A DNA stretch of 64,000 nt from the IMG/VR virus record IMGVR_UViG_3300045049_000070, positions 1-64,000 of that record; one strand, written 5' to 3'. This DNA is from a virus. Below are positions 14,420 through 33,116 of this stretch, one piece after another; within the stretch, counting starts at the first letter, position 1, and each line of letters begins with the position of its first letter. Below the pieces are notes generated by a model. The model saw only the letters and a list, made by a program, of their open reading frames with translations, was not told where the DNA came from and ran no database searches. The position numbers were made by a program, and so were the translations under genes.

Positions 14420-15691
14420 GTGCCTTTTCAACGCCGCTCGAACAATAAAATCCTTCCGCCAAATAGTCGCACAGCGGATGTGGCTCGGAAGACGCTGGAT
14501 GCTCTGGTTCCAGTCCAACAGCGAAAATATGCGAACGCATTCAAAGCAAATGGATATGAAACGTTGGTCTACAGTAGATTGAAACACGGAACTCCGTGTT
14601 CATGTCAATCTTCTAGACGAGCACAGGCCAGCATTCTTGACGAGCAAACAGGAAAATTGAAGAAAGGCCAGATGGAGAAAATATTGACCGGAGGACTATC
14701 TTTCCGTGTCAATCCATACGGCGTAAAAGAACCGATGCGTGACGATCTGCGTGCCCCTCGTGGTGGTCAATCTCAACCCCGAGACGAGCAGATTTATGAC
14801 GTGCTAGACAACAGTAAACCAGTTGCTGATTGGGAATTAGAGGACGACGTACTCGATAATCCTAATGCGACAGTCACTAGGGCAGCGAATGGTGACGAAG
14901 ATGATGCACAGGCTGATATTGTTGATCAAACAGCAGATGATGCTAGCGAGCTGGTGGACATTGAAGCGTATGCTAATGACAGCAAATGCGCAGTTTGTTT
15001 CGGGACCGGATATGTCGGTGGATTTACGTTGCTGAACGGATTGCGCTTAGTGATATGCACACAATGGCCTGCCATCTCCAATCTGGTGGGAACTATTGAA
15101 CCAAACCGTGTTCCGCATTCATTCTTTACGACAGATGTGTCGTTTACCGTCACGTTACCAAAAGGAGTGATTGGTGTTGATGCATTCAGATTGTGGAACA
15201 ACGATTTGCAGATTCACCCACTGACCATCACAATTGACGGTCTTTCGTATTCGATGGACTTGTTAAGAGCGTTTTGTGACGGACGTCCGCATACGTTCAG
15301 ATTCCAGTTTGAACGCCTGACGTATTTCACGCACGTAGAGCTCCAATTCAATTTGTCGGCCATTCCTGCTCTATTCGATTTCCCACGCGGGACGTTTGGA
15401 GCAAACATGCAGAACGTGGAAAATTTGGAGGACATGCAGTTGTATGCGAGTCCAGAGATTCCAAACATCGAACGTGAAGACATGCTGGTCGAATGTACGT
15501 TGGGGAAGGCATTGGTCGTCAGTTCAGTAACTGATTGGAAGACCAACAAACGTGATATTCTGGGCTGGGACGTGAACGTGCGTGCGCTCCAACCATCAGA
15601 ACTATTGAACTTGCTCCCACGTCGTCACCCAACGCATCAGAAATCCACTTACATGATAAGAGACAATATTGATGGTGGACGGAGAACGTAA
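14420..15691 (+). CDS. Probable virion protein with zinc motifs (423 aa)
   Basis: GTG start with CAGGAG ten bases upstream. The N-terminal 140 residues are basic with C-S-C (residues 60-62), a central Asp-rich linker (about 140-185), then C-A-V-C-F-G-T-G-Y, together a likely CxC...CxxC zinc site. The rest is beta-rich with structural-protein character. It opens the long virion/accessory operon and is preceded by the TAATTTGATT motif. I take it for a structural protein from context; no named family. Confidence 0.65.
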   Translation: MPFQRRSNNKILPPNSRTADVARKTLDALVPVQQRKYANAFKANGYETLVYSRLKHGTPCSCQSSRRAQASILDEQTGKLKKGQMEKILTGGLSFRVNPYGVKEPMRDDLRAPRGGQSQPRDEQIYDVLDNSKPVADWELEDDVLDNPNATVTRAANGDEDDAQADIVDQTADDASELVDIEAYANDSKCAVCFGTGYVGGFTLLNGLRLVICTQWPAISNLVGTIEPNRVPHSFFTTDVSFTVTLPKGVIGVDAFRLWNNDLQIHPLTITIDGLSYSMDLLRAFCDGRPHTFRFQFERLTYFTHVELQFNLSAIPALFDFPRGTFGANMQNVENLEDMQLYASPEIPNIEREDMLVECTLGKALVVSSVTDWKTNKRDILGWDVNVRALQPSELLNLLPRRHPTHQKSTYMIRDNIDGGRRT

Positions 15692-16167
15692 TGCCAATCA
15701 CGAACAAGACTGTAGATTTGTGGTCACAAGTTCAACTGAAGGTCGATGGACGTCCTGTCAAAAGCGGTGATTTCTATGACATCAGTTATGATGTTTATCT
15801 GGATAACGAGTATGTCGGTTATTTGATCTCGGACTACGCATTGAATACTACTGTCCAGAATTTCTTAGACAAATTGGCTCCAGATCAATCACGATTAGCT
15901 GATGTTATGTCTGCTGTTCCTTCACGATATAGATTCAACTACTATTATCTGAACTACCTAGAAATCAAAAGAAAGTGGCAAGGTCAGGGAATAGGTGGAA
16001 TCGCGTTGCAGAAATGGTTTTCCAAGTTGAAGTCCCCAGCGATGGTTGGATTAACGCCCGCAAAGATTGCGAATGTCCCAGTAGATATCGTCCGTAAGTT
16101 CTATCTTAAGAATGGATTCAAGAAAGTAAATCCGCATTATTTTGTCACTTTCATTAAGAGCAAATAG
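15691..16167 (+). CDS. GNAT-family N-acetyltransferase with tag-like N-terminus
   Basis: Residues about 80-110 contain L-E-I-K-R-K-W-Q-G-Q-G-I-G, the acetyl-CoA pyrophosphate loop (QxxGxG/A), and near residue 145 F-Y-L-K-N-G-F-K-K matches the C-terminal motif B of GNATs. Substrate unknown. It begins M-P-I-T-N-K, one of a series of related N-termini in this region. Starts by TAATG overlap with the virion gene. Confidence 0.8.
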   Translation: MPITNKTVDLWSQVQLKVDGRPVKSGDFYDISYDVYLDNEYVGYLISDYALNTTVQNFLDKLAPDQSRLADVMSAVPSRYRFNYYYLNYLEIKRKWQGQGIGGIALQKWFSKLKSPAMVGLTPAKIANVPVDIVRKFYLKNGFKKVNPHYFVTFIKSK

Positions 16168-16168
16168 T

Positions 16169-16405
16169 ATGGAAACCGTTTACGCTAACATTAGACGATT
16201 GGGTCGTATTCTAGCCGTGGCAAATAATCGTGGAATCGGTGAAGGGCTCGATAATCCATTTGCAACCGAAGCCGATATTCTCAACGATGATGTGGGAACC
16301 CAAGAAGAATATGAACATGCTGATCGTATGGGATTAAATGGACGTCCGATCGAAAAACCCACGGGAACAGGCATGGATCGAGAATCTATGGGGATGCAAT
16401 CGTGA
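16169..16405 (+). CDS. Hypothetical protein (78 aa)
   Basis: ATG at 16169 chosen rather than a TTG at 16142 inside the GNAT gene. The N-terminus is an amphipathic basic helix (Y-A-N-I-R-R-L-G-R-I-L-A), the remainder Gly/Asp/Glu-rich and probably disordered. The helix resembles the second class of tag seen in neighbours (A-R-L-K-x-x-A), so it may belong to that set. Confidence 0.65.
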   Translation: METVYANIRRLGRILAVANNRGIGEGLDNPFATEADILNDDVGTQEEYEHADRMGLNGRPIEKPTGTGMDRESMGMQS

Positions 16406-16422
16406 TCGGCATTTCGTGTGGG

Positions 16423-16525
16423 TAATTTGATTCCATACACAAGATAGTTGGGTGGCGGTGGTTGGACCAGAATTCATTCTGGAAACCGTTCCGTTCCGTC
16501 GTCATTCACTTAGGATTAGGAAATT
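16423..16525 (+). promoter_or_regulatory. Duplicated leader copy 1 (TAATTTGATT motif plus hairpin)
   Basis: Starts with TAATTTGATT at 16423-16432 and shares about 36 bases, apart from one mismatch, with the leader at 17105. A variable part follows with a perfect hairpin CCAGAAT-tc-ATTCTGG (about 16468-16483), then a shared GTCATTCA and AGGAAATTATGGCGATCA around the next start. Probably a promoter with an untranslated leader. Confidence 0.5.
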
Positions 16526-17107
16526 ATGGCGATCACTAATCGTCCAGAGACTGCTGAGACCTATAAAGACTATATTGAGATTCTGAAAAGGAAATATAAA
16601 CTGCGAGTATTAGGTGATGGAGCGTTCGGAACAGTGTTCCAGCACCCCACCTTGAAGAACGTAGCAGTGAAGGTCTACAGACAAGTGAAATGGATGTCAG
16701 CAACCAAATGGTTGGAATGGTGCAAGAAGCATCCGGAGAATCCTTACGTTCCTAAGATCTATAAGGTTGATTCTCTCCAAATAGAACAAGAAGGCTATCA
16801 ACGATACCTGCATAACGTGGTGTTTATGGAGAAACTATCTCGCGTTTCATCCACCTTTGTCGACGAGGTTCTTCAGAAAACAGGAGCATCAACCCATGTC
16901 TTGTATAAGACAGTTGATGAAGGAAGACTTGTGTACGAATTCTATTCGGATTCACGCAAGAATGTTCGTACTCTGAAAGACAAGAAATTGGCAGAAGTGC
17001 TATTGGCGATAGATCAGTTTGGCGATCAGTCTGATGGAACAGATTTGCGATATTCAAATTTCCTTCGTCGGGATCAACAATTGGTGTTCGTTGATCCTGT
17101 GAGGTAA
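16526..17107 (+). CDS. Protein-kinase-like protein with MAITNR tag (193 aa)
   Basis: Residues 30-38 G-D-G-A-F-G-T-V-F form a glycine-rich ATP loop, and A-V-K puts the ATP lysine at residue 49. Near the end D-L-R-Y-S-N-F-L (D173, N178) and F-V-D-P (D190) correspond to the catalytic loop and the metal-binding Asp. At 193 residues it is a compact, probably minimal kinase-fold enzyme; an inactive relative or small-molecule kinase is possible. It opens M-A-I-T-N-R. Confidence 0.7.
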   Translation: MAITNRPETAETYKDYIEILKRKYKLRVLGDGAFGTVFQHPTLKNVAVKVYRQVKWMSATKWLEWCKKHPENPYVPKIYKVDSLQIEQEGYQRYLHNVVFMEKLSRVSSTFVDEVLQKTGASTHVLYKTVDEGRLVYEFYSDSRKNVRTLKDKKLAEVLLAIDQFGDQSDGTDLRYSNFLRRDQQLVFVDPVR

Positions 17108-17191
17108 TTGGATTCCATACACAAGATAGTTGGGTGGCGGCTTCGATTTGATTTATCGAAAACCGAACCGCCGTCATTCATAGAGGAAATT
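17105..17191 (+). promoter_or_regulatory. Duplicated leader copy 2 (TAATTGGATT motif plus hairpin)
   Basis: Second copy of the 16423 leader. TAATTGGATTCCATACACAA is shared with one mismatch, then a different hairpin in which GGCGG pairs with CCGCC and TTCGAT pairs with ATCGAA, then the shared GTCATTCA and GAGGAAATT before ATG. The variable arms keep pairing ability, which suggests an RNA structure under selection. Confidence 0.5.
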
Positions 17192-18415
17192 ATGGCGATC
17201 AAACGATTGATGGGCTGTACTGAGATTGCTGACGCAACGCAGTATCGTAGCCTTACCGACGTTGAAAGACATCTGCAACAGATTAAAGATCAACTAAACG
17301 ACGCTGACGCGCTTCTGCGTACATACCGACTTCAATTCGCACGAGCTGAGACCTCGGCCATCAAATTCACAGTCGGTCAGGATATTGATGGCCCCAAGAA
17401 GGGCGGAAAGATAATCACGAATCAGATTGACAAAGTGGTGATTCCCAAGATGGATGCTCTGCGCTCCAACTTTGAGGTCGTCAATCAACTGGCAGAAAAG
17501 GTCCAAGAACTAGAGACCATGTATGCGTCGGTCGAAATCAATTTTCGCGGCGTTCGTGGGCAGCCAGATGTGCTGAAGTCGATCAAGACTATGAAAGCCG
17601 GAGCCGAAAAGAAGCTGCAGGATGCTCTCGACTTTCTAAACGATATCGGCACCAAATACGCCCCAACGGCCTTCAAGGAAATGACCAAGAAGGTTGCGGC
17701 GCGTCTGAACGAAGATCTTGACTTTGAGAAAGCCAAGTCTGCTGTATACGCTACTGAGATGGCGACAGGAGAATTGTCTTTCACTCTTTATATTGAACTA
17801 AAAAACCTCTCAGACGAAAACGGCGAAACATGGCCCAAATTCTACATCGTTCTGACGTGCGTTTTGGTTCCAATAGCTACCGACAAAACGAAACTGAGTG
17901 TCGAAACCTACGTCACTGTAATGCACGATTTCCAGCCTCCAGGACGTTTTGATGCGGGAAAACGAGTGACGACTGATAAGGAAGCGCTGGCCGAAATCGG
18001 ACATCTACTTAGCCTAGAAAATATCGCGACAGCTATCGGCACTTTGCCTCATAATCTGGTAGGGATTGACAAGAAGTTCTTGAAAACTGGAGCCGAGCGT
18101 GTACGTGATGTAGAGGTAGATGAATCTAGCTTCACGTTCTGGTTCCTGAAAGCGGTAAAAGAAGCAGAAGCACGTTCGTTGATGAATACTCTGTATCCGC
18201 AAGTTAAAGCAATGCTGTCACACATTAAGCGCGCTCAGGTAAAGATGCGACTGCTGGAAGCCAGCGACGGAGGATGGGGCGCGAAATACAGTCTGGTCAA
18301 TCTGGCTCGTGACGACCAGATTTCTGTGCAAGATCTTGATTGGCTGAAGAAGCAATTCAAGATGAGTGACGAAAAGCTACGTGAAGTAGTGAAGATCGTC
18401 AACAAAGGAAATTAA
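17192..18415 (+). CDS. Coiled-coil-rich hypothetical protein (407 aa)
   Basis: ATG at 17192 with GAGGAAATT is chosen over an in-frame codon at 17108 that lies in the leader. Residues about 20-200 are heptad-like helices, about 205-270 a beta-rich block, and the C-terminus helical with W-L-K-K-Q-F-K. It begins M-A-I-K-R-L, related to the neighbouring tags but divergent. Likely a virion or virion-associated protein; no family recognised. Confidence 0.7.
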   Translation: MAIKRLMGCTEIADATQYRSLTDVERHLQQIKDQLNDADALLRTYRLQFARAETSAIKFTVGQDIDGPKKGGKIITNQIDKVVIPKMDALRSNFEVVNQLAEKVQELETMYASVEINFRGVRGQPDVLKSIKTMKAGAEKKLQDALDFLNDIGTKYAPTAFKEMTKKVAARLNEDLDFEKAKSAVYATEMATGELSFTLYIELKNLSDENGETWPKFYIVLTCVLVPIATDKTKLSVETYVTVMHDFQPPGRFDAGKRVTTDKEALAEIGHLLSLENIATAIGTLPHNLVGIDKKFLKTGAERVRDVEVDESSFTFWFLKAVKEAEARSLMNTLYPQVKAMLSHIKRAQVKMRLLEASDGGWGAKYSLVNLARDDQISVQDLDWLKKQFKMSDEKLREVVKIVNKGN

Positions 18416-18423
18416 GACATATC

Positions 18424-18858
18424 ATGAAGATCAGACTTCAAGCCGCTGTTCGTCTTAAGAAAGTTTTAGCCGCAGCACTAAAATCCTTCCCTACGTTAAG
18501 CAAATATCCGACAATCGTGAAAGCAGTCGAGGAAATTGGACTCGACAACAACAGCAGAAAAGACTCTTATTATGGACGCGCCGAGTGGTATCTTACCAAA
18601 GGGAAATATAAGCCTGCAGAATTAGAAGCAACATGCAAAGAACTTTCCGGACAGAATGTCAGTAAGCTCAAGAATCCAAAGGCTATTGAGATGTATGGAA
18701 AGAACGGAAACTTCTTAGAAGTTCTGGCTATAGGCGAAGATAGGGATCAAAGAGATGTTATGTCCCGTTCACCGAAATACAAACGTGTGTTTGACTTTCT
18801 AGCCGATGTATTCGACGGTGCAGAGTGTCCTATCCACTCGCTATTCAGAGGTGAATAA
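18424..18858 (+). CDS. Hypothetical protein, R-L-K type N-terminus (144 aa)
   Basis: Opens M-K-I-R-L-Q-A-A-V-R-L-K-K-V-L-A, an amphipathic basic helix shared in form with 18859, 19134, 22317 and 23433. The rest is a soluble helical domain with no motif I know. One base before the next gene. Confidence 0.75.
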   Translation: MKIRLQAAVRLKKVLAAALKSFPTLSKYPTIVKAVEEIGLDNNSRKDSYYGRAEWYLTKGKYKPAELEATCKELSGQNVSKLKNPKAIEMYGKNGNFLEVLAIGEDRDQRDVMSRSPKYKRVFDFLADVFDGAECPIHSLFRGE

Positions 18859-19134
18859 ATGAGGATTCAAGCTGTCGCACGGCTTAAAGAAGCCGCTGGT
18901 GTTCTAGACGTTAAACAGAAACAGAAGATACAGAGTGGTCTAGCACAGATATCTGAAGGAATGGCGATCATCAGAGTTGGCCTTAATACGTTGAAACCAA
19001 TTGTTGATGTTCTCAAGAAGAATGATGGAAGTTCTTACGTCGATCATGCAAGTGTCACTAACTCACTCAAAGATTTTGAGTTTGTTTTCAAAGCACTTAA
19101 AGACGCGATTAAAGACGACGACAAAGGCATCTAA
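18859..19134 (+). CDS. Hypothetical protein, R-L-K type N-terminus (91 aa)
   Basis: Opens M-R-I-Q-A-V-A-R-L-K-E-A-A-G, the same amphipathic N-terminal helix as its neighbours. The rest is helical with an acidic tail. Stop overlaps the next start (TAATG). Confidence 0.75.
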   Translation: MRIQAVARLKEAAGVLDVKQKQKIQSGLAQISEGMAIIRVGLNTLKPIVDVLKKNDGSSYVDHASVTNSLKDFEFVFKALKDAIKDDDKGI

Positions 19135-19919
19135 TGAAACTGCAAGCACTTGCGCGCCTGTTGTCGCTAGCAGGTGCTTATACCGAAGACAGACTGACAC
19201 GCGAACAAGCAAAGAAACTAGCGCTTCAGTTACGTCCGCTAATCAAACGTCATTGTCAGGGTTTCCAGCTAGCGGGCTCATATCGTCGCGGCAAGACTGA
19301 TATTGGTGACTTAGATTTTGTGGTAGTCAATTGCGATATGGCTGCCTTGCTCTCTGACTTGGTTGAACATGCTGCGGCAACAGAAGCTCCTCGTGCAGGA
19401 TCCGGAATGTTGACCGTCACTGTGCCGTTCGGAAAGAAGAGTATTCAAGTCGAGTTTGTAAACGTCAAGCCTCGCGCGATAGGTAGCGGATTGCTTCATA
19501 GTACGGGAGGTGCAGATTTCAACAAAGGTCTGCGCAGTTACGCCAAGAGTAAGGGAATGCTGCTCAATCAGCATGGTCTGTTCCGTGCTGATAACAAGAG
19601 ATTCTTAGCCGGACGTACTGAAGAAGATGTGTTCGACAAGCTAGGGTGGGCGTTCGTTCCACCTAAAGAACGTGGCTTCAGTTTTATGACCTTGAAGCCC
19701 AAATATCTTATCGATCCATACAAGAATAACCTGTTGTTGAAGAAACCTCAAGGTGAAGGTAAAGTATGGAAGGTCAAATCCAAATCCGATCCAAACAAGC
19801 TCTATTTCGTGACACTAAAACCGAATGGCAAATGGACATGCACATGTCCGCAGTTTGTGTTCAGAAAAGTAGACTGCAAACACATAGATCTAGTTAAAGA
19901 GAGAACAGGTACCAAATGA
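19134..19919 (+). CDS. Family X DNA polymerase-like nucleotidyltransferase with SWIM zinc finger
   Basis: Residues 48-62 read G-S-Y-R-R-G-K-T-D-I-G-D-L-D-F, the pol-beta type GSxRRGK...GDxD site with catalytic D59 and D61; the third acid appears as E107 in I-Q-V-E-F, where Asp is usual. G-G-A-D-F-N-K-G-L-R further on fits the family's substrate-binding region. The C-terminus has C236-T-C238...C248-K-H250, a SWIM zinc-binding pattern. At 261 residues it is a minimal PolX: no 8-kDa lyase helices are obvious. It starts M-K-L-Q-A-L-A-R-L-L-S-L-A-G, the local tag. Possible roles are gap filling, end processing or nucleotidylation of host targets. Confidence 0.82.
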   Translation: MKLQALARLLSLAGAYTEDRLTREQAKKLALQLRPLIKRHCQGFQLAGSYRRGKTDIGDLDFVVVNCDMAALLSDLVEHAAATEAPRAGSGMLTVTVPFGKKSIQVEFVNVKPRAIGSGLLHSTGGADFNKGLRSYAKSKGMLLNQHGLFRADNKRFLAGRTEEDVFDKLGWAFVPPKERGFSFMTLKPKYLIDPYKNNLLLKKPQGEGKVWKVKSKSDPNKLYFVTLKPNGKWTCTCPQFVFRKVDCKHIDLVKERTGTK

Positions 19920-20515
19920 ATCCCGTTAATCTAGCAAAGCTATCCTACACGTTCCTAGACTCGAACGGTGCTGCGTATGTCGGAAAAGAAGTGACTGTCT
20001 ACGAAGACAACTCTAGTATTCCTGTTCGTACATTCACGTCAGACGGTCGTTTCTTGGGTTCAATTGGATATACAGACCCAAATGGATTGTTTCAGACCTA
20101 CGTCCTGCAGGGCAAGAGCTATCGTTTAGTGATCCGTGATGCGGCTCTGAATGGGTTTGAACTCGACGAAGTGACGGGCATTGTTCCTTCGAATGCCAAT
20201 CCATCGAATGCAGCTCCGCTGACTGGTCCGCTGGCAATCACTGCATCACGAACGTTGACCGCTCAAGATAACGGACGTACTTTGGTGTCGAACGTCACGT
20301 CGGCGATCGTACTAACGATTCCTAAAGGACTCGCTTCTGGATTTGGATGTGCAGTCCATCAACAGAATACAGGAAAAGTTACATTTGCTGCCGCATCTGG
20401 TGTAACTATGACAAATGTTGGCGATCAATATTCGACGTCAGGCCAGAAAGCTACGATTGGATTAGTAAACATTGCTCAGGACGCTTACAACGTTACTGGT
20501 TCTACTGGAGCGTAA
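19916..20515 (+). CDS. Tail-fibre or adhesin-type virion protein (199 aa)
   Basis: The N-terminal about 95 residues are beta-rich with a G-K-E-V-T-V-Y and Y-R-L-V-I-R-D pattern like carboxypeptidase-regulatory or fibre-attachment domains. The C-terminal 90 residues (T-A-Q-D-N-G-R-T-L...T-I-P-K-G...V-T-F-A-A-A-S-G-V-T) match a beta domain common in phage tail fibres. Precedes the beta-helix gene, so the two may form one receptor-binding unit. ATGA overlap with the PolX gene. Confidence 0.7.
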   Translation: MNPVNLAKLSYTFLDSNGAAYVGKEVTVYEDNSSIPVRTFTSDGRFLGSIGYTDPNGLFQTYVLQGKSYRLVIRDAALNGFELDEVTGIVPSNANPSNAAPLTGPLAITASRTLTAQDNGRTLVSNVTSAIVLTIPKGLASGFGCAVHQQNTGKVTFAAASGVTMTNVGDQYSTSGQKATIGLVNIAQDAYNVTGSTGA

Positions 20516-20520
20516 TCCAG

Positions 20521-22317
20521 ATGATGTTATCAAATGCTTTTCTAGCAGCTCTTGCAGCGGCCGGAAATCAGAATTTCACCTATTATGTAGATTCGGTAAA
20601 CGGGAACGATGCGAACAACGGTACATCTAAAGCATCTGCCTTCCAATCGCTGAGCAGCGTTCCGTTGCTAACCACCGGTCAATCAGTTGGACTGGCATGT
20701 GGATCGTACTGGCGTGGATATCTTCTAGACGTCAATAGTTCTGGTAACATCATCTTTGGATCGTACGGAACAGGTGCCCCTCCGGTAATGGATGGAGCAG
20801 TCGTCGTTACTGGGTGGACACAGAACGGAACATATTCTGATATCTACCAAGTTTCGTTCACACGTGACAATACGAATCCGACGACCACCGAACTACTTGG
20901 TCTGTGGATAGATGGTATACGCCCACGGTTTGCCTCGTCATTGGCTGATTTGGAAGCTAACGGTGGATGGTATGCAGATTCACGTATCTCCCTGACAACA
21001 AACGTGTACGTGAAAACGGTGCCTAACTCGCACACGATTGAGATCAGCAAATACGATTGGGCGATCGGATGCTACAACGCAGCGACTCCATGCTACGTAA
21101 ATGGTCCAATCGAAATGAAGCGTTATCTGGCGCATTACAACGCGCTCCAGATGGGCCCAGGACAGGCTCAACAATTCATTGTTAGAGATGGAACTATCCA
21201 CCATACGGTTACTCAAGCGTCATTGACACAAGATTTCATCTTGACTGAGCTGGATATACCGTCTGATCCAAATCTGATGGTCGCCTATCGTGATAATCCT
21301 GTTGGTTTTACACCAGTGATAAAACGTGGATTTGCCATCTTTGATCAAGCTACGTTAGGCGGCCAGAATTTCACAGTTCATGCAATTTCTGAGCACAGCG
21401 GATCAACAGATATCCAGAGTCTGGATGCAGAACAGTGCGGCTTTGTTGGAATAAATGGATTGGCCCATCTGTCTGCATCAAGTGGGCATCTAGAAGGAAT
21501 CTATTGTCACAACGTTGTCAGTGACGGAATATTCTTGGGTCCTGGGTCAACGGTGACTAGACTACTGATGTGGGACGATCAAGTCTCTAACTATAACGGC
21601 GGTGTCGCTGCAATGACACAAATCCACGCCGTTGTAAACGCATCTGCTTCTATCACTGACTGCGCTGTGTGGGGAAAGAAAGGTGCTCAGATGGTAATGG
21701 ACACCGTAGGAACAGTTCCGTTACCAATGTCGCACACTGTGCTATCTTCTGACAATGGTCAAGCGATCAACGTTACAAGTGGATCAATTGCCGTCAACTT
21801 CTGTGTCATTGACACAAACGATACCAACATACAGATTTGGGATGGATCTGATCCAGGATCGTACACTGGAGATTATAACGTATGGGCGTGGTGGCGCAAT
21901 CCGTCTGGCTTCCGACCCGGTGCCGTAAAAGGACAATGGAAAGGCTCTCTGATATTCCACCTAAATGATTGGCAAGCAGCGTCTGGTCAGGATGCTCATA
22001 GTGTAGGCCTTGATTCTGCCGATCAGGTGAGTGGCAATGCCAATGCATTCTGGTTAGGAATGGCTCTAGGAACTGGTGGACCTGAAGTTGGTGACTTCCG
22101 AATCAATCCAAATGCCAGAGTAATAGGTGGTGACGGAACGGCGTACATTGGAACGTTCACTGATGGAACTCCAATCACACAAGCGGGTCCTCAAACTCAC
22201 TGGGATTGGAACGCCAGAGCAATCGCATCTGGTCCTCCAACACATATACCACAGCTGCCAATAACTCTGTCTCAGATGCGACAGTATATTCAAACCCCAA
22301 AATTATGGACCTTCTGA
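20521..22317 (+). CDS. Beta-helix tail-spike-like protein (598 aa)
   Basis: ATG at 20521, five bases after the previous stop; the longer in-frame opening at 20347 lies in the fibre gene and is unlikely. N-terminus Y-Y-V-D-S-V-N-G-N-D-A-N-N-G-T is the usual entry to right-handed parallel beta-helix (pectin-lyase fold) proteins, followed by short repeated strands rich in Gly, Asn, Ser and Thr. Such proteins are phage tail spikes that bind or cleave surface polysaccharide. Catalytic residues are not identifiable by eye. Confidence 0.75.
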   Translation: MMLSNAFLAALAAAGNQNFTYYVDSVNGNDANNGTSKASAFQSLSSVPLLTTGQSVGLACGSYWRGYLLDVNSSGNIIFGSYGTGAPPVMDGAVVVTGWTQNGTYSDIYQVSFTRDNTNPTTTELLGLWIDGIRPRFASSLADLEANGGWYADSRISLTTNVYVKTVPNSHTIEISKYDWAIGCYNAATPCYVNGPIEMKRYLAHYNALQMGPGQAQQFIVRDGTIHHTVTQASLTQDFILTELDIPSDPNLMVAYRDNPVGFTPVIKRGFAIFDQATLGGQNFTVHAISEHSGSTDIQSLDAEQCGFVGINGLAHLSASSGHLEGIYCHNVVSDGIFLGPGSTVTRLLMWDDQVSNYNGGVAAMTQIHAVVNASASITDCAVWGKKGAQMVMDTVGTVPLPMSHTVLSSDNGQAINVTSGSIAVNFCVIDTNDTNIQIWDGSDPGSYTGDYNVWAWWRNPSGFRPGAVKGQWKGSLIFHLNDWQAASGQDAHSVGLDSADQVSGNANAFWLGMALGTGGPEVGDFRINPNARVIGGDGTAYIGTFTDGTPITQAGPQTHWDWNARAIASGPPTHIPQLPITLSQMRQYIQTPKLWTF

Positions 22318-22775
22318 TGAAGATCAATGCGCCCAATAGACTGAAGGAAATTGCAGTCGAAATCAAACCTGAGAATCGTGGCAAGTTGCACAAGCGGCTT
22401 GGTATTCCAGAAGGAGAGACAATTCCAATGTCTCGTCTACATTCTGAACTCAAGAAAGCCAAGGACAGCGGCGATACTGAGCTCGAAAAGATGGTGAACT
22501 TCGCCATAAATTTTCACCACAAGGCCTCTGTGCAAAAGGCGGCAAAGAAACGCCTTCGTGATTACTTAGTGTCGTTCATTCCAGAACATTGGCCTGGAAC
22601 GACTGCGGTCCTAGAAGACGATTGTGTGATCGTGAAAGGACCAAAAGCACAGTTGGATAAGATCTATAAAGAATACCATGAAGATGGCCATCCAGGCGAA
22701 CTCGCTTGCTATCGCTATCCGAATTATGTGTCGATAACATCGACAGGCCGCAAAATGGGCGGAATGCCATGGTGA
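22317..22775 (+). CDS. Hypothetical protein, R-L-K type N-terminus (152 aa)
   Basis: ATG at 22317 overlaps the tail-spike stop; upstream in-frame sequence is inside that gene. Near the start K-I-N-A-P-N-R-L-K-E-I-A combines both local tag types. The remaining domain is basic and mixed alpha/beta; ends G-G-M-P-W. No family recognised. Confidence 0.7.
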   Translation: MKINAPNRLKEIAVEIKPENRGKLHKRLGIPEGETIPMSRLHSELKKAKDSGDTELEKMVNFAINFHHKASVQKAAKKRLRDYLVSFIPEHWPGTTAVLEDDCVIVKGPKAQLDKIYKEYHEDGHPGELACYRYPNYVSITSTGRKMGGMPW

Positions 22776-22778
22776 TGT

Positions 22779-23432: not shown

Positions 23433-23912
23433 ATGGCTATCACCAAAATCCATGCTGCTGAACGTTTGAAACAAACGGCTCTTACCGACACAAAAGGAGC
23501 AGCTGCGTTTGTACAGAAGGTCTTTGACAAATATCAGCTTGGTCTTAAAGTCAAAGCCGACAGAAATCCAGATAATGAGACTGAACCGGCATTAGCTGTA
23601 TCCGGCCGATACAAAGGGCAGGAAATTGAGTTCAACATCATTCTCATGGCGGACGGTAAGCGGCCGGATGTAGTTTTTGATGTCTTCGCATGGCCAGAAA
23701 TGTCCAATGAATCACCAGATGATTATGAGGCAATGGACGTTCTAATGCACAACGGCATGAAAAAGAAAAGCGAACGTCGTGCGTTGGTAAAAGGTCTAAA
23801 TCAAGCAGCTGGGACGCTCAGAGATTCTGCGAATAGACTTGTAGACTACGCCGATTGGCTTGAACGAGTATCTAAAGCTATGGCGGACATTGGAAGTAAG
23901 TACGGGAAATAA
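23433..23912 (+). CDS. Hypothetical tagged protein (159 aa)
   Basis: Starts M-A-I-T-K-I-H-A-A-E-R-L-K-Q-T-A, which joins the two tag forms of this region in one N-terminus. The remaining domain is mixed alpha/beta with a helical C-terminus. Directly abuts the previous stop. No family recognised. Confidence 0.75.
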   Translation: MAITKIHAAERLKQTALTDTKGAAAFVQKVFDKYQLGLKVKADRNPDNETEPALAVSGRYKGQEIEFNIILMADGKRPDVVFDVFAWPEMSNESPDDYEAMDVLMHNGMKKKSERRALVKGLNQAAGTLRDSANRLVDYADWLERVSKAMADIGSKYGK

Positions 23913-23913
23913 C

Positions 23914-24546
23914 ATGAAAGCAGAAAGTCGCTTGAAAGTTCTTGCGACCGAAGGTGAATCGCTGATCGAACGACGTAACAAACAGACTACTGACCTGTTG
24001 CACCGTCTTAAGTCCATGGGTCTATCTGGAGATTGGCGAGTAGAATCGCATCATTCGGTCATCGTGTTTAGACCTCAGGTAAGCATTGCTATTGGTGATT
24101 GGTGGACGTCAAAGACAGAACCTATTCCCGATGGTGAACATATTCTTGGAGAGTTGCTTTACGACTTGCGTAAATTAGGCTACCGTCTAGACAAAGCCAG
24201 ATCACGTAAAATAGGCAGCATGCATGAAAGTGCGTTTTGGACTAACGGCCACGATGTAATCAGAGTAATGGTCACATATGGCCCCGACGACAATCATCAC
24301 GTAAGTTACATAGAATTTGCGTTCTACGAACCAGAATCTGCTGCTCGTTATATTGGCACGCAACAGTGGTTTCTCGACAAGCCTGTTCATAACCAGAAAG
24401 ATTATCTGACAAAGAAGCCGTTCTCTAAGTTCAAGCAGGTTCACGAAGACCACAAACAGCAGAAAGAACAAGAAGCGACAGATGAGCAGGATGAACGATA
24501 CGGACGTGCGATGGAACGTCTGCGCCAACGACTGCAGAAAGACTGA
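23914..24546 (+). CDS. Hypothetical tagged protein (210 aa)
   Basis: ATG at 23914 (M-K-A-E-S-R-L-K-V-L-A) is taken because it falls just after the previous stop; the upstream frame extension is inside that gene. Central domain alpha/beta with several His and Trp; C-terminal 40 residues are a Glu/Gln/Lys-rich coiled helix. Function unknown. Confidence 0.7.
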   Translation: MKAESRLKVLATEGESLIERRNKQTTDLLHRLKSMGLSGDWRVESHHSVIVFRPQVSIAIGDWWTSKTEPIPDGEHILGELLYDLRKLGYRLDKARSRKIGSMHESAFWTNGHDVIRVMVTYGPDDNHHVSYIEFAFYEPESAARYIGTQQWFLDKPVHNQKDYLTKKPFSKFKQVHEDHKQQKEQEATDEQDERYGRAMERLRQRLQKD

Positions 24547-24555
24547 AAGTCAATC

Positions 24556-25011: not shown

Positions 25012-25017
25012 GACATT

Positions 25018-26490
25018 ATGAACAGCACACAAGTAATCGTCAAGTACCCCGCCGACATACGAAACGTTTCAGTCGACTTCACCGACGTACTTGTGGGTGG
25101 AGAGCAAATCACAAGCGGTAGCTTGAGCGTCAGTGATCCAACAGGATTGACAGTCAGCGGACTAGGTTTTACTGCCAGTACCATCAGCCTTAATGTAGGT
25201 GGCGGGGCAGATAAGCAATCGTATGGTGTGCAAGTGACAGCCAACACGAGTGGCGGTCATATCTACACCAAACAATTAGCAGTGGTCAACAATTCTGATT
25301 TGGCTGCCAACTATCAGAACGTAAACGTAGATGCGTTCCAGGCTCTGGTTGGAAAGCTTGAGGCAGGAACATCGGCGTTAGGTAAAGTCAACTTCTCGTT
25401 TCCAGCAACAGTTGATACAACGACTGGTGTTGTTGGATGGGAATTGCTAGACATTGATGGGATTGTTCTTTCGTCTGGACAGGCGTTTGGATATCAGACA
25501 GTCACCACTGTTGGTGGCAAACGTGTTGAAGCACAAGCTATCATATCTGTTCCATCGAACACGAAACCAACGTTGGAAGGTCAGTCGTACCAGATTCGCT
25601 GGACATTGACTCTAAACGGCAATCAGAACTATGCGTATGAAAACCTGATTGTCACTGGACCAAATACTGTTCCAGAAGGCCCGGAAGATGTAATCGAGCT
25701 ATCGGACGCAGCGTCGTTCTGTGCATCAATAGTGTCTCCGACTCCGTTCGACACTGTTACTGCCGACATCTATGTCAAAAACGATAAGCTGGTTGCAGAC
25801 GCACCGACTACAGCTGTTCAGACCGCAGACGGATGGCTGTACACGATCAATGTGACTAACGATGGTACATTGGTCGCCAGCCTAGATCCGTATACTGTGA
25901 TGTGGAAGCAATCGAATGTTGCACGTCCAAACTATGTTGAACGCAGCACCGGACGACTGTTTGTCGTCAACGCCAGCTTGATGCAGGCAGTAAATGACAT
26001 GCGGATTATCGTCAATCGAGCTGAGTCCTCGATTCTCGGCGCGAACGACATCATCTTCACAGAACAGATTCTGCTGGCGTACCTGCGTCGCGGTCGCGAC
26101 GCGTTCAACAGTGCATATGGCATGTTCACTGCATTTGACATGAGAAACGCCAGCGGCGGTATTCGCGAGTATTGGCTGCGCTTCAGTGAAATCATGTGCC
26201 TGCGTGCTCAGTTCCTGGCCGAAGGTGAAAAGGTGTTCAATCTTAGTGGACAAGGTATTTCGCTGGATGTGGATCGTACTTCGTACTATAGTCAGTTGGC
26301 TGACAACATGCAATCGCAGCTGGACAACGAATGCAAGTCCATGAAACAAAACCTGATCAAGAAAGGCATCCTTGGCGGTGACGGCAACGTCGACAACTTG
26401 ACGGCAATGCGTCGTGGATCGAACGGAGCAGTGGCTATCACAATCACTCCAGCCTCCTCACTTGGATGGCGTTGGGCACGGAGATTCTAA
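25018..26490 (+). CDS. Virion structural protein (490 aa)
   Basis: Residues 1 to about 300 are beta-rich, Ser/Thr/Val-rich and built of immunoglobulin-like repeats. Residues about 325-460 are helical, with L-G-A-N-D-I-I-F-T-E-Q...Y-L-R-R-G-R-D-A-F-N, which looks like a connector or adaptor element of a tailed-phage particle. Lacks the tag. Structural assignment is from composition and context. Confidence 0.65.
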   Translation: MNSTQVIVKYPADIRNVSVDFTDVLVGGEQITSGSLSVSDPTGLTVSGLGFTASTISLNVGGGADKQSYGVQVTANTSGGHIYTKQLAVVNNSDLAANYQNVNVDAFQALVGKLEAGTSALGKVNFSFPATVDTTTGVVGWELLDIDGIVLSSGQAFGYQTVTTVGGKRVEAQAIISVPSNTKPTLEGQSYQIRWTLTLNGNQNYAYENLIVTGPNTVPEGPEDVIELSDAASFCASIVSPTPFDTVTADIYVKNDKLVADAPTTAVQTADGWLYTINVTNDGTLVASLDPYTVMWKQSNVARPNYVERSTGRLFVVNASLMQAVNDMRIIVNRAESSILGANDIIFTEQILLAYLRRGRDAFNSAYGMFTAFDMRNASGGIREYWLRFSEIMCLRAQFLAEGEKVFNLSGQGISLDVDRTSYYSQLADNMQSQLDNECKSMKQNLIKKGILGGDGNVDNLTAMRRGSNGAVAITITPASSLGWRWARRF

Positions 26491-26495
26491 ATATC

Positions 26496-26768
26496 ATGGC
26501 GATCATAAATCGTGTCGAAGCCGTTCGAAAGCGCATTTACGAGTTCGTCCCCGGAAGACCAAAATTCTTTTACGCAGACGAAGTCGATAGCATCATTAAC
26601 AATCTAAAAACAAAAGGCAAGGCAGAGCTGCTACATAATGCGTTAAGCGACTTTTTCGATTTTAGTGTCGACAGGAGTAATCTAAAGAATCCAAAGAAAG
26701 CTTCTGATCAACTCTGCAAAGACGTTGGGAAAACTGTCTGGTACTCAGAAATAGACGATGATCACTAA
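26496..26768 (+). CDS. Hypothetical tagged protein (90 aa)
   Basis: ATG at 26496 (M-A-I-I-N-R-V-E-A) is chosen over an in-frame ATG at 26466 that sits in the structural gene. After the tag comes a small helical charged domain. Overlaps the next start by 11 bases. Function unknown. Confidence 0.7.
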   Translation: MAIINRVEAVRKRIYEFVPGRPKFFYADEVDSIINNLKTKGKAELLHNALSDFFDFSVDRSNLKNPKKASDQLCKDVGKTVWYSEIDDDH

Positions 26769-27519
26769 CCGTATACAAGCGGCTGCTTTATACAGATTGG
26801 TCGACAGCATGCCTTCAGTAACTGTCTACCACGGAACCACTGAGAAAGAAGCCGAAAGAGGACTGAAAAATCCTGATAACCTAAATACAAACTGGGCACA
26901 AGGTCTCCTGCCTCCAAATAGTCATCATCTAACAACTGACTTGAATCTAGCGAAAGGATATGCATCATCTGGTGTTCCTAGAAAATATTTCAAGGAATCA
27001 GAGAAGCGAATGAATGATGCTATTGATGACGTTCAACGAACAGCTAGAGATTACGAAAAGAAGCTAGGATTGGATCCAGATTCTAAGATGTGGTCCGTGT
27101 GGAAAGAACAATCTCCACACACCTTTAAGAAGAAATATCCGAATGTATTCAAGCTTGGAGAAGTTGAATACGAGAAGCGTGTCAAGCAGCTAATGAAATT
27201 CTCTAAAAGTCTTTATATAGCTTTCGATGACAAAGTGGAGCAAAAGAAACTTGAAGACGTTCGCGGTCAAGGTGGATATGTTCTATCGTTTACCCTTACT
27301 CCAAAGAAGGTGCTCGCATTTTCAAAACCCTTTGACTCTCTTGACAAGTATGAACTATTTAGTGCCCTTCAGCGAATGAAGGGCAAGTTCCAGTGTATCT
27401 ATTTTCCCAGTTCATATTTGCGTCCAGAAAATATGAAAGGTGGTCGTGTCAAGAGAAGTGATTACTATATTGTAGTAGGAACAAAGCTTCTCTCAAATCA
27501 GAAGAGAATAGACTTATGA
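26758..27519 (+). CDS. ADP-ribosyltransferase-like protein with tag (253 aa)
   Basis: After M-I-T-N-R-I-Q-A-A-A, residues 21-28 read V-T-V-Y-H-G-T-T, then E-A-E-R-G-L, H-H-L-T-T-D-L, A-K-G-Y-A-S-S and, much later, G-Y-V-L-S-F-T-L. The order Y-H-G-T / S-T strand / A..YA is that of the ART-RES-type NAD-binding fold, where the His is the first catalytic residue. The last catalytic Glu is not obvious, so activity is unproven. T4 Alt, a virion-injected ADP-ribosyltransferase, is the analogy. ATGA-type overlap with the next gene. Confidence 0.55.
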   Translation: MITNRIQAAALYRLVDSMPSVTVYHGTTEKEAERGLKNPDNLNTNWAQGLLPPNSHHLTTDLNLAKGYASSGVPRKYFKESEKRMNDAIDDVQRTARDYEKKLGLDPDSKMWSVWKEQSPHTFKKKYPNVFKLGEVEYEKRVKQLMKFSKSLYIAFDDKVEQKKLEDVRGQGGYVLSFTLTPKKVLAFSKPFDSLDKYELFSALQRMKGKFQCIYFPSSYLRPENMKGGRVKRSDYYIVVGTKLLSNQKRIDL

Positions 27520-28166
27520 CGATCACCAATCGAATCGTTGCTGTCCCGAAAGAAGCTAATCCAAACAGCAAAGAGTGGAAAGCCGGATACTCTGCCGGTC
27601 GCAATGGGAAGAGTAGCAAATCACCTCACGTAAAAGGCACTCAAAAGGAAATCGACTGGACGGATGGATGGATAACTGGTGATCATGAACGTAATAGTCC
27701 ACCTCCAAAATCAACTAAGGATGTTTTGGGATATTCGATACAAGATCGCTTAGAACGTTTACGACAACGTCGTGGGGATCCTCCAGATGTCTGGTACACG
27801 CATGAAACAGCGGTTCCGTCCAAAAGCGTTTACTACGTTCTCAGACGATTATTCAAGACACTATTTCCACACGGAGGAGCTGGCGACGTTCCGCCGTATG
27901 GAACAAACATATGTCATGGGCGAGTGGCAGAAGCAATCAAACGTAGGAACTACAATCCAGAAGACAAAATCTGGCTGTATGGCGCGTCTGGTGGTGATGT
28001 CATGCATTCGGTCCTGACAGACGAACATAATCGAGTGATCCTCGATCCTTGGGCTGGAAGCGGAAACGCTTTTGGTGGACGAGATGGTTATGGCAAACCC
28101 GGTGACATGCTTGACTGTTTATGGGTCGAAACAGTGGCCGGACTTCAAGACGAATTTGGTATTTAA
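27516..28166 (+). CDS. Tagged RMF-like/papain-like protein (216 aa)
   Basis: Begins M-T-I-T-N-R-I-V-A. Residues about 21-56 hold W-K-A-G-Y-S-A-G-R-N-G-K...W-T-D-G-W-I-T-G, a pattern like ribosome modulation factor. The C-terminal half has N-I-C133-H-G-R, V-M-H164-S-V-L and V-I-L-D177-P-W, a spacing that fits the Cys-His-Asp triad of papain-like or transglutaminase-like folds seen in toxins and peptidases. Both readings are from short motifs and need a structural check. Confidence 0.45.
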   Translation: MTITNRIVAVPKEANPNSKEWKAGYSAGRNGKSSKSPHVKGTQKEIDWTDGWITGDHERNSPPPKSTKDVLGYSIQDRLERLRQRRGDPPDVWYTHETAVPSKSVYYVLRRLFKTLFPHGGAGDVPPYGTNICHGRVAEAIKRRNYNPEDKIWLYGASGGDVMHSVLTDEHNRVILDPWAGSGNAFGGRDGYGKPGDMLDCLWVETVAGLQDEFGI

Positions 28167-28181
28167 CACATAGGAGCTATC

Positions 28182-28316: not shown

Positions 28317-28317
28317 T

Positions 28318-28629
28318 ATGGCAATCTCAGAACGTATAACGTCAGCTATTGGAATAACTCCTGAACAGAAGCAGATACAAACCAAGTTCCTGACGTTGCT
28401 GAAGCGTAGTAATAGAGGGATCAAGGCAGAACAAGCAGGTAGTGTTTGGGAGGTCTACTACACTTCGAAAGACCACAGCATCACCTTTGGTGACGACTTG
28501 CTGAAGTTCTCGGTAAAGAACGGTATAACCATATCAATCATAAAAGACTCTACTGTAATCAAACTCAGTGCGATCTTCTCTATGGATAGAAACCAAATGC
28601 AAGAGCTTATAGATAACATCAGTGACTAA
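28318..28629 (+). CDS. Hypothetical tagged protein (103 aa)
   Basis: Starts M-A-I-S-E-R-I-T-S-A, a variant of the local tag. The rest is an alpha/beta domain (V-W-E-V-Y-Y, L-L-K-F-S-V, V-I-K-L-S-A). Directly followed by the HNH gene with no gap. Function unknown. Confidence 0.75.
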   Translation: MAISERITSAIGITPEQKQIQTKFLTLLKRSNRGIKAEQAGSVWEVYYTSKDHSITFGDDLLKFSVKNGITISIIKDSTVIKLSAIFSMDRNQMQELIDNISD

Positions 28630-28950: not shown

Positions 28951-28960
28951 AGGACGAAAT

Positions 28961-29419: not shown

Positions 29420-29427
29420 GACGACCG

Positions 29428-29437
29428 TAATTTGATT
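29428..29437 (+). promoter_or_regulatory. TAATTTGATT motif, candidate promoter (site 4)
   Basis: Intergenic, 61 bases before the 29489 start, followed by ACGTACCCTAGAG. Shares the TAC four bases after the motif with the sites at 16423, 17105 and 62869. A downstream CCGGAG is the ribosome site of the next gene. Confidence 0.45.
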
Positions 29438-29488
29438 ACGTACCCTAGAGGTCGCTGCCCACCAATTCAATTTGCCCGGAGATCGAAT

Positions 29489-30022: not shown

Positions 30023-30039
30023 AATGCAAAGGATTTATC

Positions 30040-30870: not shown

Positions 30871-30884
30871 GGCTAACGCGGTTC

Positions 30885-30923
30885 AAACGGGAGCCTGTCC
30901 ACCACGGATAGAGCTCCCGTTTT
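30885..30923 (+). terminator. Intrinsic terminator
   Basis: A 10-bp stem AAACGGGAGC / GCTCCCGTTT with an 18-base loop, ending in TTTT. Placed 15 bases after the 30040 stop. Confidence 0.85.
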
Positions 30924-30940
30924 CGTTCCAAGGACACATC

Positions 30941-31297
30941 ATGGCAATCACAAACAAAGTCACTGCAAAGCCTTCGCAGGAAACTGCTCTCAGTTGGGCA
31001 GATATGGCGAAAACGGTTAACACTGTCGTTAATGAACTCCGCGCGGGCGGAGTCAAGTTGAAGAAAGAGAATGAACCTGTACGCGGGCCTTCTTACTACA
31101 GACAGTTCTATATCTGCTTGTCAGGTGAGGAATCGATTCCAAAAATCTTGAAAGCACGTGGATTCAAGACTGATAAACTTGGGACGATGGGAAAGCGAGT
31201 AGGCTCGTATGGAGTGGCTGTAGACTACGATCCCAACGATAACATGATTGAAATCGTCATTACAGATTTCGACGGTCCACAAGAAGAACCTTTCTGA
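30941..31297 (+). CDS. Hypothetical tagged protein (118 aa)
   Basis: Begins M-A-I-T-N-K-V-T-A after AAGGAC. The rest is an alpha/beta domain ending in an acidic tail (D-F-D-G-P-Q-E-E). No family recognised. Confidence 0.75.
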   Translation: MAITNKVTAKPSQETALSWADMAKTVNTVVNELRAGGVKLKKENEPVRGPSYYRQFYICLSGEESIPKILKARGFKTDKLGTMGKRVGSYGVAVDYDPNDNMIEIVITDFDGPQEEPF

Positions 31298-31299
31298 TC

Positions 31300-31521
31300 A
31301 TGGCAATCAAGAACCGTATTCAAGCTACTCCAGGCGAGCTCACTGGATGGTTCTTGCCTGTAGACAGTGTTAGCGACATCCAACGTGAACGCATTACAGA
31401 ATTCGTAAGGCGAGCAAAGGGTGCTCACTTCATCAACATCTTGATGCGTATCGACGGTCAAGACGAGAATATTGAGGCCGACTGGCTCAGTCGTCTCGAT
31501 CCAAGTACTTCCATCGTATAA
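31300..31521 (+). CDS. Tagged paralogue A (73 aa)
   Basis: Begins M-A-I-K-N-R-I-Q-A-T. Similar along its length to the 31811 product: shared G-W-F-L, R-A-K-G-A-H-F-I, R-I-D-G-Q-D-E and D-W-L-S-R-L-D-P. The pair arose by duplication with the 31548 gene between them. Function unknown. Confidence 0.75.
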   Translation: MAIKNRIQATPGELTGWFLPVDSVSDIQRERITEFVRRAKGAHFINILMRIDGQDENIEADWLSRLDPSTSIV

Positions 31522-31547
31522 ACCACCGTGCAGTAGAGTGGACGATC

Positions 31548-31811
31548 ATGCAACGCCTCCAACCAAACGGCAGACTGTGGAACTTCGTTATCGCAGTAGA
31601 CCAGTTGATAGCCACATGGTTTGGAGCGTGGCCTGACGAGACATTGAGCAGTTATGCTTGGCGTCTTGAGCGTGCTGGTGACCCCGAAGGTCACTACTGG
31701 CGTGTACAGATCGACGACATCTTTGAGCATTTGTTTGGTGTACGGGATCATTGTGAAAACGCACATGCAAGTCACATGATACGTAATTCCATCCCTCCTG
31801 AGGAGCGCTAA
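31548..31811 (+). CDS. Conserved small phage protein, 'DETLSSYAWR' type (87 aa)
   Basis: Contains P-D-E-T-L-S-S-Y-A-W-R-L and, later, F-G-V-R-D-H-C-E-N-A, ending I-P-P-E-E-R. This order (DETxSxxAxR...W...DHC...PPE.R) is what I expect of a small conserved phage protein common in Proteobacteria phages, of unknown role. No tag. Overlaps the next start by TAATG. Confidence 0.7.
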   Translation: MQRLQPNGRLWNFVIAVDQLIATWFGAWPDETLSSYAWRLERAGDPEGHYWRVQIDDIFEHLFGVRDHCENAHASHMIRNSIPPEER

Positions 31812-32035
31812 TGGCGATCAAGAACAGAATTCAAGCCAGTACCAGGATTAAGGGCTGGTTTCTAAAAGCAACAGATGATCAAGAGTACGCGCAGCGAATT
31901 AACTCGATCATCAACTGGTTGAAGGGTGCACACTTCATTGATCTTGCGGTTCGAATCAATGGGAAAGATGAACGAGAACAAGGCGATTGGGTCAAGTACC
32001 TAGAGCCAGTGTTTGGAGAAGAAGATGTCACTTAA
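31811..32035 (+). CDS. Tagged paralogue B (74 aa)
   Basis: Begins M-A-I-K-N-R-I-Q-A-S, and matches the 31300 product (G-W-F-L, K-G-A-H-F-I, R-I-N-G-K-D-E, D-W-V-K-Y-L-E-P). The DNA encoding the two tags uses different synonymous codons, so the peptide is what is conserved. Overlaps the Nudix gene by 11 bases. Confidence 0.75.
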   Translation: MAIKNRIQASTRIKGWFLKATDDQEYAQRINSIINWLKGAHFIDLAVRINGKDEREQGDWVKYLEPVFGEEDVT

Positions 32036-32486
32036 GAAAGTAGAAGCAGCACAAATTAGCGCGGCCGGGATTATCTTTGTGCATGATGGACAGTTCTTGT
32101 TAATCATGCGTGCGCGTGATGTTGTCTCTCCATCTGTGTGGTGCGGAGCTGGTGGAAAGATCGAACCGGGCGAAACACCGGAACAGGCCGCCATACGCGA
32201 GTCTGAGGAAGAAATTGGGTTTCCATCTGATTTGCCAATGGAACTGATTCCGCTATATGTGTTCAATAGCGACAGTCTGGTATTTCATAACTATATCGGA
32301 TGGCTAAAGGGTGACCGATTTGACCCTAAGCTGAATTGGGAGTCAGATGGATGGGCATGGTTCACGATGGAGAATCTGCCACAGAATGGATTACACTTCG
32401 GCTTTCAGGCTATACTGTCTGATCCAATGGCAGCGTCCTTGTTGAACAGAACTATTGAAGGTTCCGTACTAAAGAGAGCAGAATGA
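32025..32486 (+). CDS. Nudix hydrolase with tag-like N-terminus (153 aa)
   Basis: Nudix box at residues 44-66: G44-K-I-E-P-G-E50, seven residues, then R58-E-S-E-E-E-I-G65. Such enzymes cleave nucleoside diphosphates linked to another group (damaged dNTPs, ADP-ribose, mRNA caps); the substrate is not readable. Start M-S-L-K-K-V-E-A-A-Q echoes the local tag. ATG at 32025 is used, with GGAGAAG before it. Distinct from the Nudix domain at 5093. Confidence 0.88.
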   Translation: MSLKKVEAAQISAAGIIFVHDGQFLLIMRARDVVSPSVWCGAGGKIEPGETPEQAAIRESEEEIGFPSDLPMELIPLYVFNSDSLVFHNYIGWLKGDRFDPKLNWESDGWAWFTMENLPQNGLHFGFQAILSDPMAASLLNRTIEGSVLKRAE

Positions 32487-32716
32487 TGCCCATCTCAAAT
32501 AGAGTCGAAGCTGTAGGCGAATCTCCAGAAGAAACAAAGGAGTGGGAAGCCATCGCCAAGTTTGTGGCGCGCGGCAAAGGAAGTGCCGTCAAGGACAAAG
32601 GCAAGAAAGTAATGTCTACGTATGACAGACTTCCAAAGTCAAATCCCACTATTCACGAGATCGAAGTTAATGGAACTCGATACGCCATTGTGAAAATCAT
32701 CAGTCTGAGTAACTAA
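32483..32716 (+). CDS. Hypothetical tagged protein (77 aa)
   Basis: ATG-ATG at 32483/32486 overlapping the Nudix stop, then P-I-S-N-R-V-E-A-V. Lys/Gly-rich middle and a short beta hairpin at the end (R-Y-A-I-V-K-I-I). No family recognised. Confidence 0.7.
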   Translation: MMPISNRVEAVGESPEETKEWEAIAKFVARGKGSAVKDKGKKVMSTYDRLPKSNPTIHEIEVNGTRYAIVKIISLSN

Positions 32717-32729
32717 GCACTAAAGCATC

Positions 32730-33116
32730 ATGACTATAACAAATCGCATAACGGCATCTCCAGCAACGCTGGAAGAACGTACCAACATTCCAAACGATCC
32801 GATTAGTGTTGCTCGTGCTCATTGGTTTATCGCTCATTTCCAGAACGGTCTTGAACGACAACTTCATTTGGCTTTCGATCCGTCCTTGACCGGACACGAC
32901 AGAATCGTGTTCAAGAGGAAAGGAAATCAGCTGAACGCTGAATCGATTGTGGCATGGCTAGAACATGCGGGGCTGAAGTTTCGTCCTGCCCGTATGAGCG
33001 TCGGAATCCCATATGCCATGATAAGCGATCGCCAATCTATCGACGGCCAATACATCTACTTCTCTGTCACATACTATGCAACACAAGGCACAGTGACTGT
33101 CTCGTGCCAATGGTGA
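32730..33116 (+). CDS. Hypothetical tagged protein (128 aa)
   Basis: Begins M-T-I-T-N-R-I-T-A-S. An alpha/beta domain follows with A-R-A-H-W-F-I-A-H-F and a beta-rich C-terminus. Last clear member of the tagged series in this window. Confidence 0.75.
   Translation: MTITNRITASPATLEERTNIPNDPISVARAHWFIAHFQNGLERQLHLAFDPSLTGHDRIVFKRKGNQLNAESIVAWLEHAGLKFRPARMSVGIPYAMISDRQSIDGQYIYFSVTYYATQGTVTVSCQW

Follow-up and report, generated by a model that had tools for sequence, protein, structure and literature searches.

The window analysed here is a DNA stretch of 64,000 nucleotides that comprises bases 1–64000 of the linear IMG/VR virus record IMGVR_UViG_3300045049_000070, which is 72,411 bases long. 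Genes for DNA polymerase, helicase, UvsX, clamp loader, SbcC and NAMPT are found in it, which indicates that the stretch belongs to a large phage. Among named phages, Achromobacter phage Motura (221 kb) and the Burkholderia phages BcepSauron and BcepSaruman (263 kb) are nearest by the DNA polymerase and by the gene at 14420. The record is a fragment from a jumbo myophage, a relative of Motura and BcepSauron. The closest helicase in IMG/VR (63% identity) is encoded by a contig of 249 kb, designated G001. The subject of the present study is a short N-terminal peptide, referred to below as the tag, which is shared by small, otherwise unrelated proteins encoded between positions 15691 and 33116 of the window.

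The cluster of tagged genes is bordered on the left by a conserved, untagged homolog of Motura gp156 (14420..15691) and on the right by a conserved helicase gene (37000..41769); all the genes from one border to the other that are described here lie on the plus strand. The first genes of the cluster encode a GNAT-like acetyltransferase (15691..16167; PF13508, E 8.9e-4) with the degenerate tag MPITNKTVDL and a protein-kinase-like protein (16526..17107; PHROG of the T7 0.7-type kinase) with the half tag MAITNRPETA. The homolog of this kinase in contig G006 possesses the full tag MKLNAATRLIA, which is in the dialect of G006. A homolog of Motura gp157 follows (17108..18415), the likely true start of which is at 17192 (MAIKRLMG), making it possibly an additional tagged gene; a scan of IMG/VR with the single protein 17108 gave no matches. 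Next come the tagged proteins MKIRLQAAVRLKKVLAA (18424..18858) and MRIQAVARLKEAA (18859..19134), a tagged PolX-type nucleotidyltransferase with a SWIM finger, MKLQALARLLSLA (19134..19919), and the tagged proteins MKINAPNRLKEIA (22317..22775; G001 ortholog MTIRAIARLKELA), MAITKIHAAERLKQTA (23433..23912), which is intermediate between both tag forms, and MKAESRLKVLATE (23914..24546; G001 ortholog MKTKAAKRLLTAG). A small tail-fibre-like open reading frame and a long one lie within the cluster at 19916–22317, and the Pfam search gave no match for them.

The second part of the cluster begins after a conserved, untagged head-tail connector homolog (25018..26490; Motura gp166, PF23148). It includes the tagged proteins MAIINRVEA (26496..26768), MITNRIQAA (26758..27519), MTITNRIVA (27516..28166), MAISERITS (28318..28629), MAITNKVTA (30941..31297; G001 ortholog MAITHRIVA) and MAIKNRIQA, the latter start being present twice (31300..31521 and 31811..32035). 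The second of these two proteins is similar to a protein of the relative L101 at 9908, MKIEAANRIQA. A Nudix hydrolase (32025..32486) shows the tag-like start MSLKKVEAA (MSINKKVEAA in G001, the nearest relative), and the last two tagged proteins are MMPISNRVEA (32483..32716; G001 ortholog MPVKNRVEA) and MTITNRITA (32730..33116). The open reading frames and N-termini given in a preliminary description of the window, made from the sequence alone, were found at the positions indicated there. Its list of starts of the type MAIxNR(I/V)xA holds for most of the proteins, except that 15691 and 16526 retain the first half only, and it had not included the Nudix hydrolase at 32025.

With one combined regular expression for either form, the tag was detected at the N-terminus of 16 of the 30 genes at 15691–33116 and in none of the remaining 83 genes of the record (Fisher P = 1.3e-11). 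When residues 2–20 of the 30 cluster proteins were shuffled 5000 times, 0.91 matches were obtained on average and 5 at most. A count of 15 is safer than 16, since the match of 17108 depends on an upstream start that is probably wrong.

Alignment of 114 tagged proteins from relatives on the arginine gave the consensus M-x-[KF]-[IL]-[NQE]-A-A-x-R-[LI]-x-A-[ST], with the information content falling to background directly behind the tag. A MAFFT alignment of 86 tagged proteins conserved the tag columns only, in agreement with the earlier claim that the domains behind the tag are unrelated. The preliminary description had distinguished a tag from a related helix. Both forms look like one family, bridged by the protein at 23433 of the window and by L101 9908 (MKIEAANRIQATERRVNGWLWKP), which can be compared with window 31811 (MAIKNRIQASTRIKGWFLK); an alignment of the latter two by eye makes the MAIxNRIxA of the window look most like a version of the tag shortened by two residues. 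The helical part of the claim, an amphipathic helix, is not supported, as the helical hydrophobic moment of the tags equals that of shuffled tags. The varying codons noticed earlier were also borne out: identical tag residues in Motura and G006 use the same codon in 27–39% of cases against a background of 23–27%. Codon choice near background means that the tag is conserved at the level of the peptide. A modest bias towards GCA for alanine was seen in the tags of Motura and G006.

The recognisable bodies of the tagged proteins (hereafter cargoes) are Nudix, GNAT, T7 0.7-type kinase, PolX with SWIM and SprT/zincin-like domains. Weak matches were obtained for HicA-like and RMF-like segments, the latter in 27516 (PF04957, E 7.8e-4, below the cut-off of that family). 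Several of the cargoes look like host-takeover enzymes. In contrast to the Nudix hydrolase of the cluster, a Nudix-containing enzyme encoded outside it beside NAMPT (5093–6214) has no tag. This NMNAT/Nudix fusion and the nicotinamide phosphoribosyltransferase (8307–9908) make up an NAD salvage pair. The protein at 26758 contains a YHGTT motif, which by eye gives the impression of an ADP-ribosyltransferase. Neither for 26758 nor for the YRG cargo family was such a fold supported, so that the motif is an impression by eye: no Pfam match was found, the models were too poor (predicted local distance difference test, pLDDT, scores of 35 and 52), and Foldseek returned nothing significant; a search for homologs of 26758 found none. 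Outside the cluster, an untagged product (48688–49611) contains an LHGTN motif and is possibly ADP-ribosyltransferase-like, again by eye only.

The tag is not peculiar to the window: it was found on unrelated proteins of Motura and about 20 IMG/VR contigs in the same syntenic position, enclosed by two conserved genes and beside capsid, protease and tail-sheath genes. Its occurrence is real and wider than was described at first. In Motura, gp156 and gp182, the homologs of the genes at 14420 and 37000, flank about 25 small genes, and the helicase gene gp182 is directly followed by those of head maturation protease, major head protein and tail sheath. The start M-x-I-Q-A-x-x-R-L-x-A is shared by about 14 of the proteins so enclosed, and another tagged one, gp197, is encoded beside the tail tube gene. 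The tagged proteins of Motura are gp158–164, 168, 170, 171, 174–177 and 197; the gene caller recovered 13 tagged proteins, 12 of them at 132–145 kb, between gp156 and the helicase. Tagged genes were located upstream of the helicase in most of the 26 IMG/VR loci fetched by that gene. A hidden Markov model of the tag run on contigs of relatives detected 3–13 copies in 9 of 12. In G006, provided that the contig is circular and its two ends are thus adjacent, 16 of 18 tagged genes form one block around the genes for sheath, capsid, protease and connector. In G001, 9 of 10 matches of the regular expression fall at 157.7–171.1 kb, and the orthologs of window 30941, 32483, 22317 and 32025 retain the tag. 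The relatives thus have the genes of a protease-matured prohead (protease and capsid) adjacent to the tagged genes.

A scan by the tag alone was made over 2.9 million viral contigs with a degenerate DNA pattern for MKIxAAxRLxA. It yielded 29 stretches in 20 contigs, partly known from the helicase search and partly new; nearly all the matches are true N-termini, mostly preceded by a Shine-Dalgarno sequence, and homologs of Motura head or tail genes were found in the fetched DNA of 16 of the 20 contigs. This indicates that the tag alone retrieves the lineage and its structural region. Two other procedures served less well: the tag alignment A1 was too strict for divergent dialects in the genome search, and all-against-all clustering of N-termini with a low score cut-off produced mixed clusters in larger genomes. 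Tag-like starts were also observed in L111 at 5189, 8298 and 15930 (MLKNAVHRLRATA, MISISAALLRLASTE and MYEIKAAVDRLKATE). The capsid proteins of BcepSauron, G001, G002, G003 and G006 show tag-like N-termini (MRTNKIQVTATKKPMVAAS, MMRIKTPVLATEY), from which it might be supposed that the capsid propeptide and the cargo tag bind the same partner.

Each phage uses a dialect of its own, for example MEIQAxARL in Motura and MKLNAAxRL in the G006 type. The mean similarity score of tags is 24.75 within the same phage and 17.39 between different phages, a difference of 7.37 against a permutation maximum of 1.82. No such effect was seen for the nine residues that follow the tag (difference 0.27, permutation maximum 1.58). 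The likeness of tags within a phage, together with the lack of such likeness behind them, would be expected from one common phage-specific binding partner and suggests that each phage has a single tag receptor. Tags are also exchanged. One cargo family possesses three different starts, MMKLNAAHRLLASQIFYRGL in G006, MKIEAATRLKASQVFYRGL in IMG/VR 3300026222 and MQVFVSLSAPKIYYRGL in Erwinia phage Alexandra. In the gp157 family, the full tag is present in the homologs L108 846 and L099 8906 and is absent in some other phages, so an old gene can gain or lose the tag. A second module, W-[WF]-x-x-L-x-x-x-Q-[KQ]-x-x-Y-[ILV]-x-x-H-P-x-S-[KR], was noticed, usually behind the tag. All nine carriers found are tagged (G006 4950, 36845 and 37777; L106 1040; L112 6623; L125 3521 and 7200; BcepSauron 33273; G003 217016), and a degenerate version of the module (QQWFLDKPVHNQKDYLTKKPFSKF) occurs towards the C-terminal end of window 23914.

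Evidence on virions comes from PaBG, a more distant relative, where three IKINLxEA N-termini were found, belonging to gp83, an unannotated open reading frame at 55970–56212 and gp267. The gene of gp83 (MLIKINLLEAVAAKA) is near the capsid gene, and the computed monoisotopic mass of its product, 35127.30, equals the value given for ‘83, Unknown’ in a list of 14 proteins identified in PaBG virions (PMC7412058). Cleavage, which the preliminary description had guessed to occur after the last alanine, was considered as well, the protease of phage SPN3US being known to cleave after AxE (PMC5694885, PMC10052503). Where the tag ends, motifs of the AxE type are in weak excess (p ~0.01–0.02 after composition control). 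Glutamate stands at +5 after the tag arginine in 16 of the 114 tagged proteins (P 0.004), and [AST][AST]E occurs at the tag boundary 16 times against 8.9 in shuffles (p 0.007), the excess being confined to the boundary. The motif [ASG]xE was found not more than 16 residues behind the tag in 39 of the 114, and universal AxE cleavage is not supported after composition control.

The best explanation is that the tag is a capsid-targeting, or cargo-loading, sequence of one lineage of jumbo myophages, to which we assign a probability of roughly 0.7. The head-packaging or localisation signal proposed at the outset is thus partly supported, by the clustering with the head module, the dialects, the presence of different tags on the same cargo and the tag-like virion protein of PaBG. 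We infer packaging in this phage, a receptor, ejection and cleavage along the following lines. The tag would form the extreme N-terminus of fast-changing small cargo proteins encoded beside head genes and, during the assembly of the prohead, would bind one phage-encoded partner, be it a core, scaffold, portal-proximal or shell protein, so that any protein bearing it would be enclosed in the head. The enclosed cargo could then enter the next host together with the ejected DNA, and part of the cargoes may be cleaved by the prohead protease where the tag ends (R-L-x-A-[ST]-E).

Several observations weigh against this explanation. Queries with Motura proteins found no capsid or protease gene in the window record, and the linkage to head genes therefore rests on relatives. 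Two tagged genes of G006 (87.7 and 164.9 kb) are far from the head genes, the tag-like genes of Alexandra (166–169 kb) are distant from its capsid gene (103.6 kb), and no excess of tags was seen in PhiXhv, GR11A and Aura, which are related phages. A literature search found no virion proteomics for the phage of the window or for others that carry the tag in its exact form; the start in PaBG is a variant form, for which homology to the KIxAAxRLxA tag is no more than plausible. The AxE signal is weak and is lacking in most tagged proteins.

It is also conceivable, although unlikely, that the tag docks proteins on the portal, neck, tail tube or baseplate and not in the head interior, given that some tagged genes adjoin tail sheath or tube genes (Motura gp197, G003 at 217 kb, Sauron at 33–36 kb) and that the cluster encloses a head-tail connector homolog. 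However, head genes lie next to tail genes in these phages in any case, and at least 15 diverse small enzymes and orphans per phage suit a large internal volume better than a site of fixed symmetry. An intracellular address, directing proteins that act in the producing cell to a replication compartment, a membrane or an assembly site, seems somewhat less probable still. A short N-terminal signal with dialects would be expected for any phage-encoded receptor, and several cargo enzymes could work during infection, but the strong linkage of tagged genes to the head module, the lack of a tag on the metabolic Nudix-containing enzyme (5093–6214) and the finding of a tag-like PaBG protein in virions speak against it.

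Two further explanations dispense with targeting. The adjacency of the genes, the shared position of the tag at the start codon and the modest GCA bias would fit a relic of gene duplication or an aid to translation initiation. This is very improbable, as the protein bodies are unrelated, synonymous codons are nearly randomised, proteins of one phage are not alike behind the tag and the same cargo changes its tag type between phages; an origin by duplication was rejected on the unrelated bodies, the dialect test and the codon data. Hardly any credence is given to the tag being primarily a signal for recognition and removal by the prohead protease during maturation. The glutamate at +5, the excess of [AST][AST]E and the tag-like starts of the major head proteins of some relatives would agree with it, but the enrichment is gone one residue further on, and two thirds or so of the tagged proteins lack a nearby [ASG]xE.

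The capsid-targeting sequence (CTS) of phage T4, carried by IPI, IPII, IPIII and Alt, is among the closest known likenesses, being an N-terminal peptide of about 10 residues on unrelated internal proteins and a host-modifying enzyme. About 10 residues of T4 IPIII suffice as a CTS, which is described as a means for T4-like phages to take up diverse proteins (PMC9026906). The tag described here differs in its consensus (KIxAAxRLxA), the lack of a universal protease site at its end, the phage lineage, the number of tagged genes (10–18 per phage, mostly in one block) and the dialects of individual phages. In SPN3US and phiKZ, N-terminal regions likewise route ejection proteins into the head of a giant phage and are processed at AxE (PMC5694885, PMC10052503), but these propeptides are mostly longer than 100 residues and belong to few proteins, whereas the tag has about 12 residues and often no AxE. 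PaBG gp83 and starts of the Alexandra type (MLIKINLLEAV, MALIKINLAGAV) also represent a short KIxLxxAV N-terminus on several different proteins, and MQVFVSLSAPKIYYRGL, a neighbour in Alexandra, is homologous to one of the tagged G006 cargoes; unlike the tag, to which they may be homologous, these starts have no R-L core. No description of this tag was found in the literature searched. We judge that the tag probably works like the T4 CTS and yet is a distinct, unreported type.

It seems, with slightly better than even odds, that the tag is a portable address at the N-terminus, used throughout the lineage and recognised by one phage receptor that co-evolves with it, so that injected effectors can be plugged in. 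Acquisition of the 12 residues would then suffice to turn the product of any gene into virion cargo, and the tag alone would predict the repertoire of injected effectors from the genome. If this is true, the unannotated small orphan genes of a widespread lineage of jumbo phages could be read as a list of the cargo of virions, in which enzymes for host takeover or against defence are likely to figure, and very large phage heads could be loaded with proteins by means of a new portable signal. Independent origins of capsid-targeting peptides in giant-phage lineages, and their co-evolution with one receptor, would become testable.

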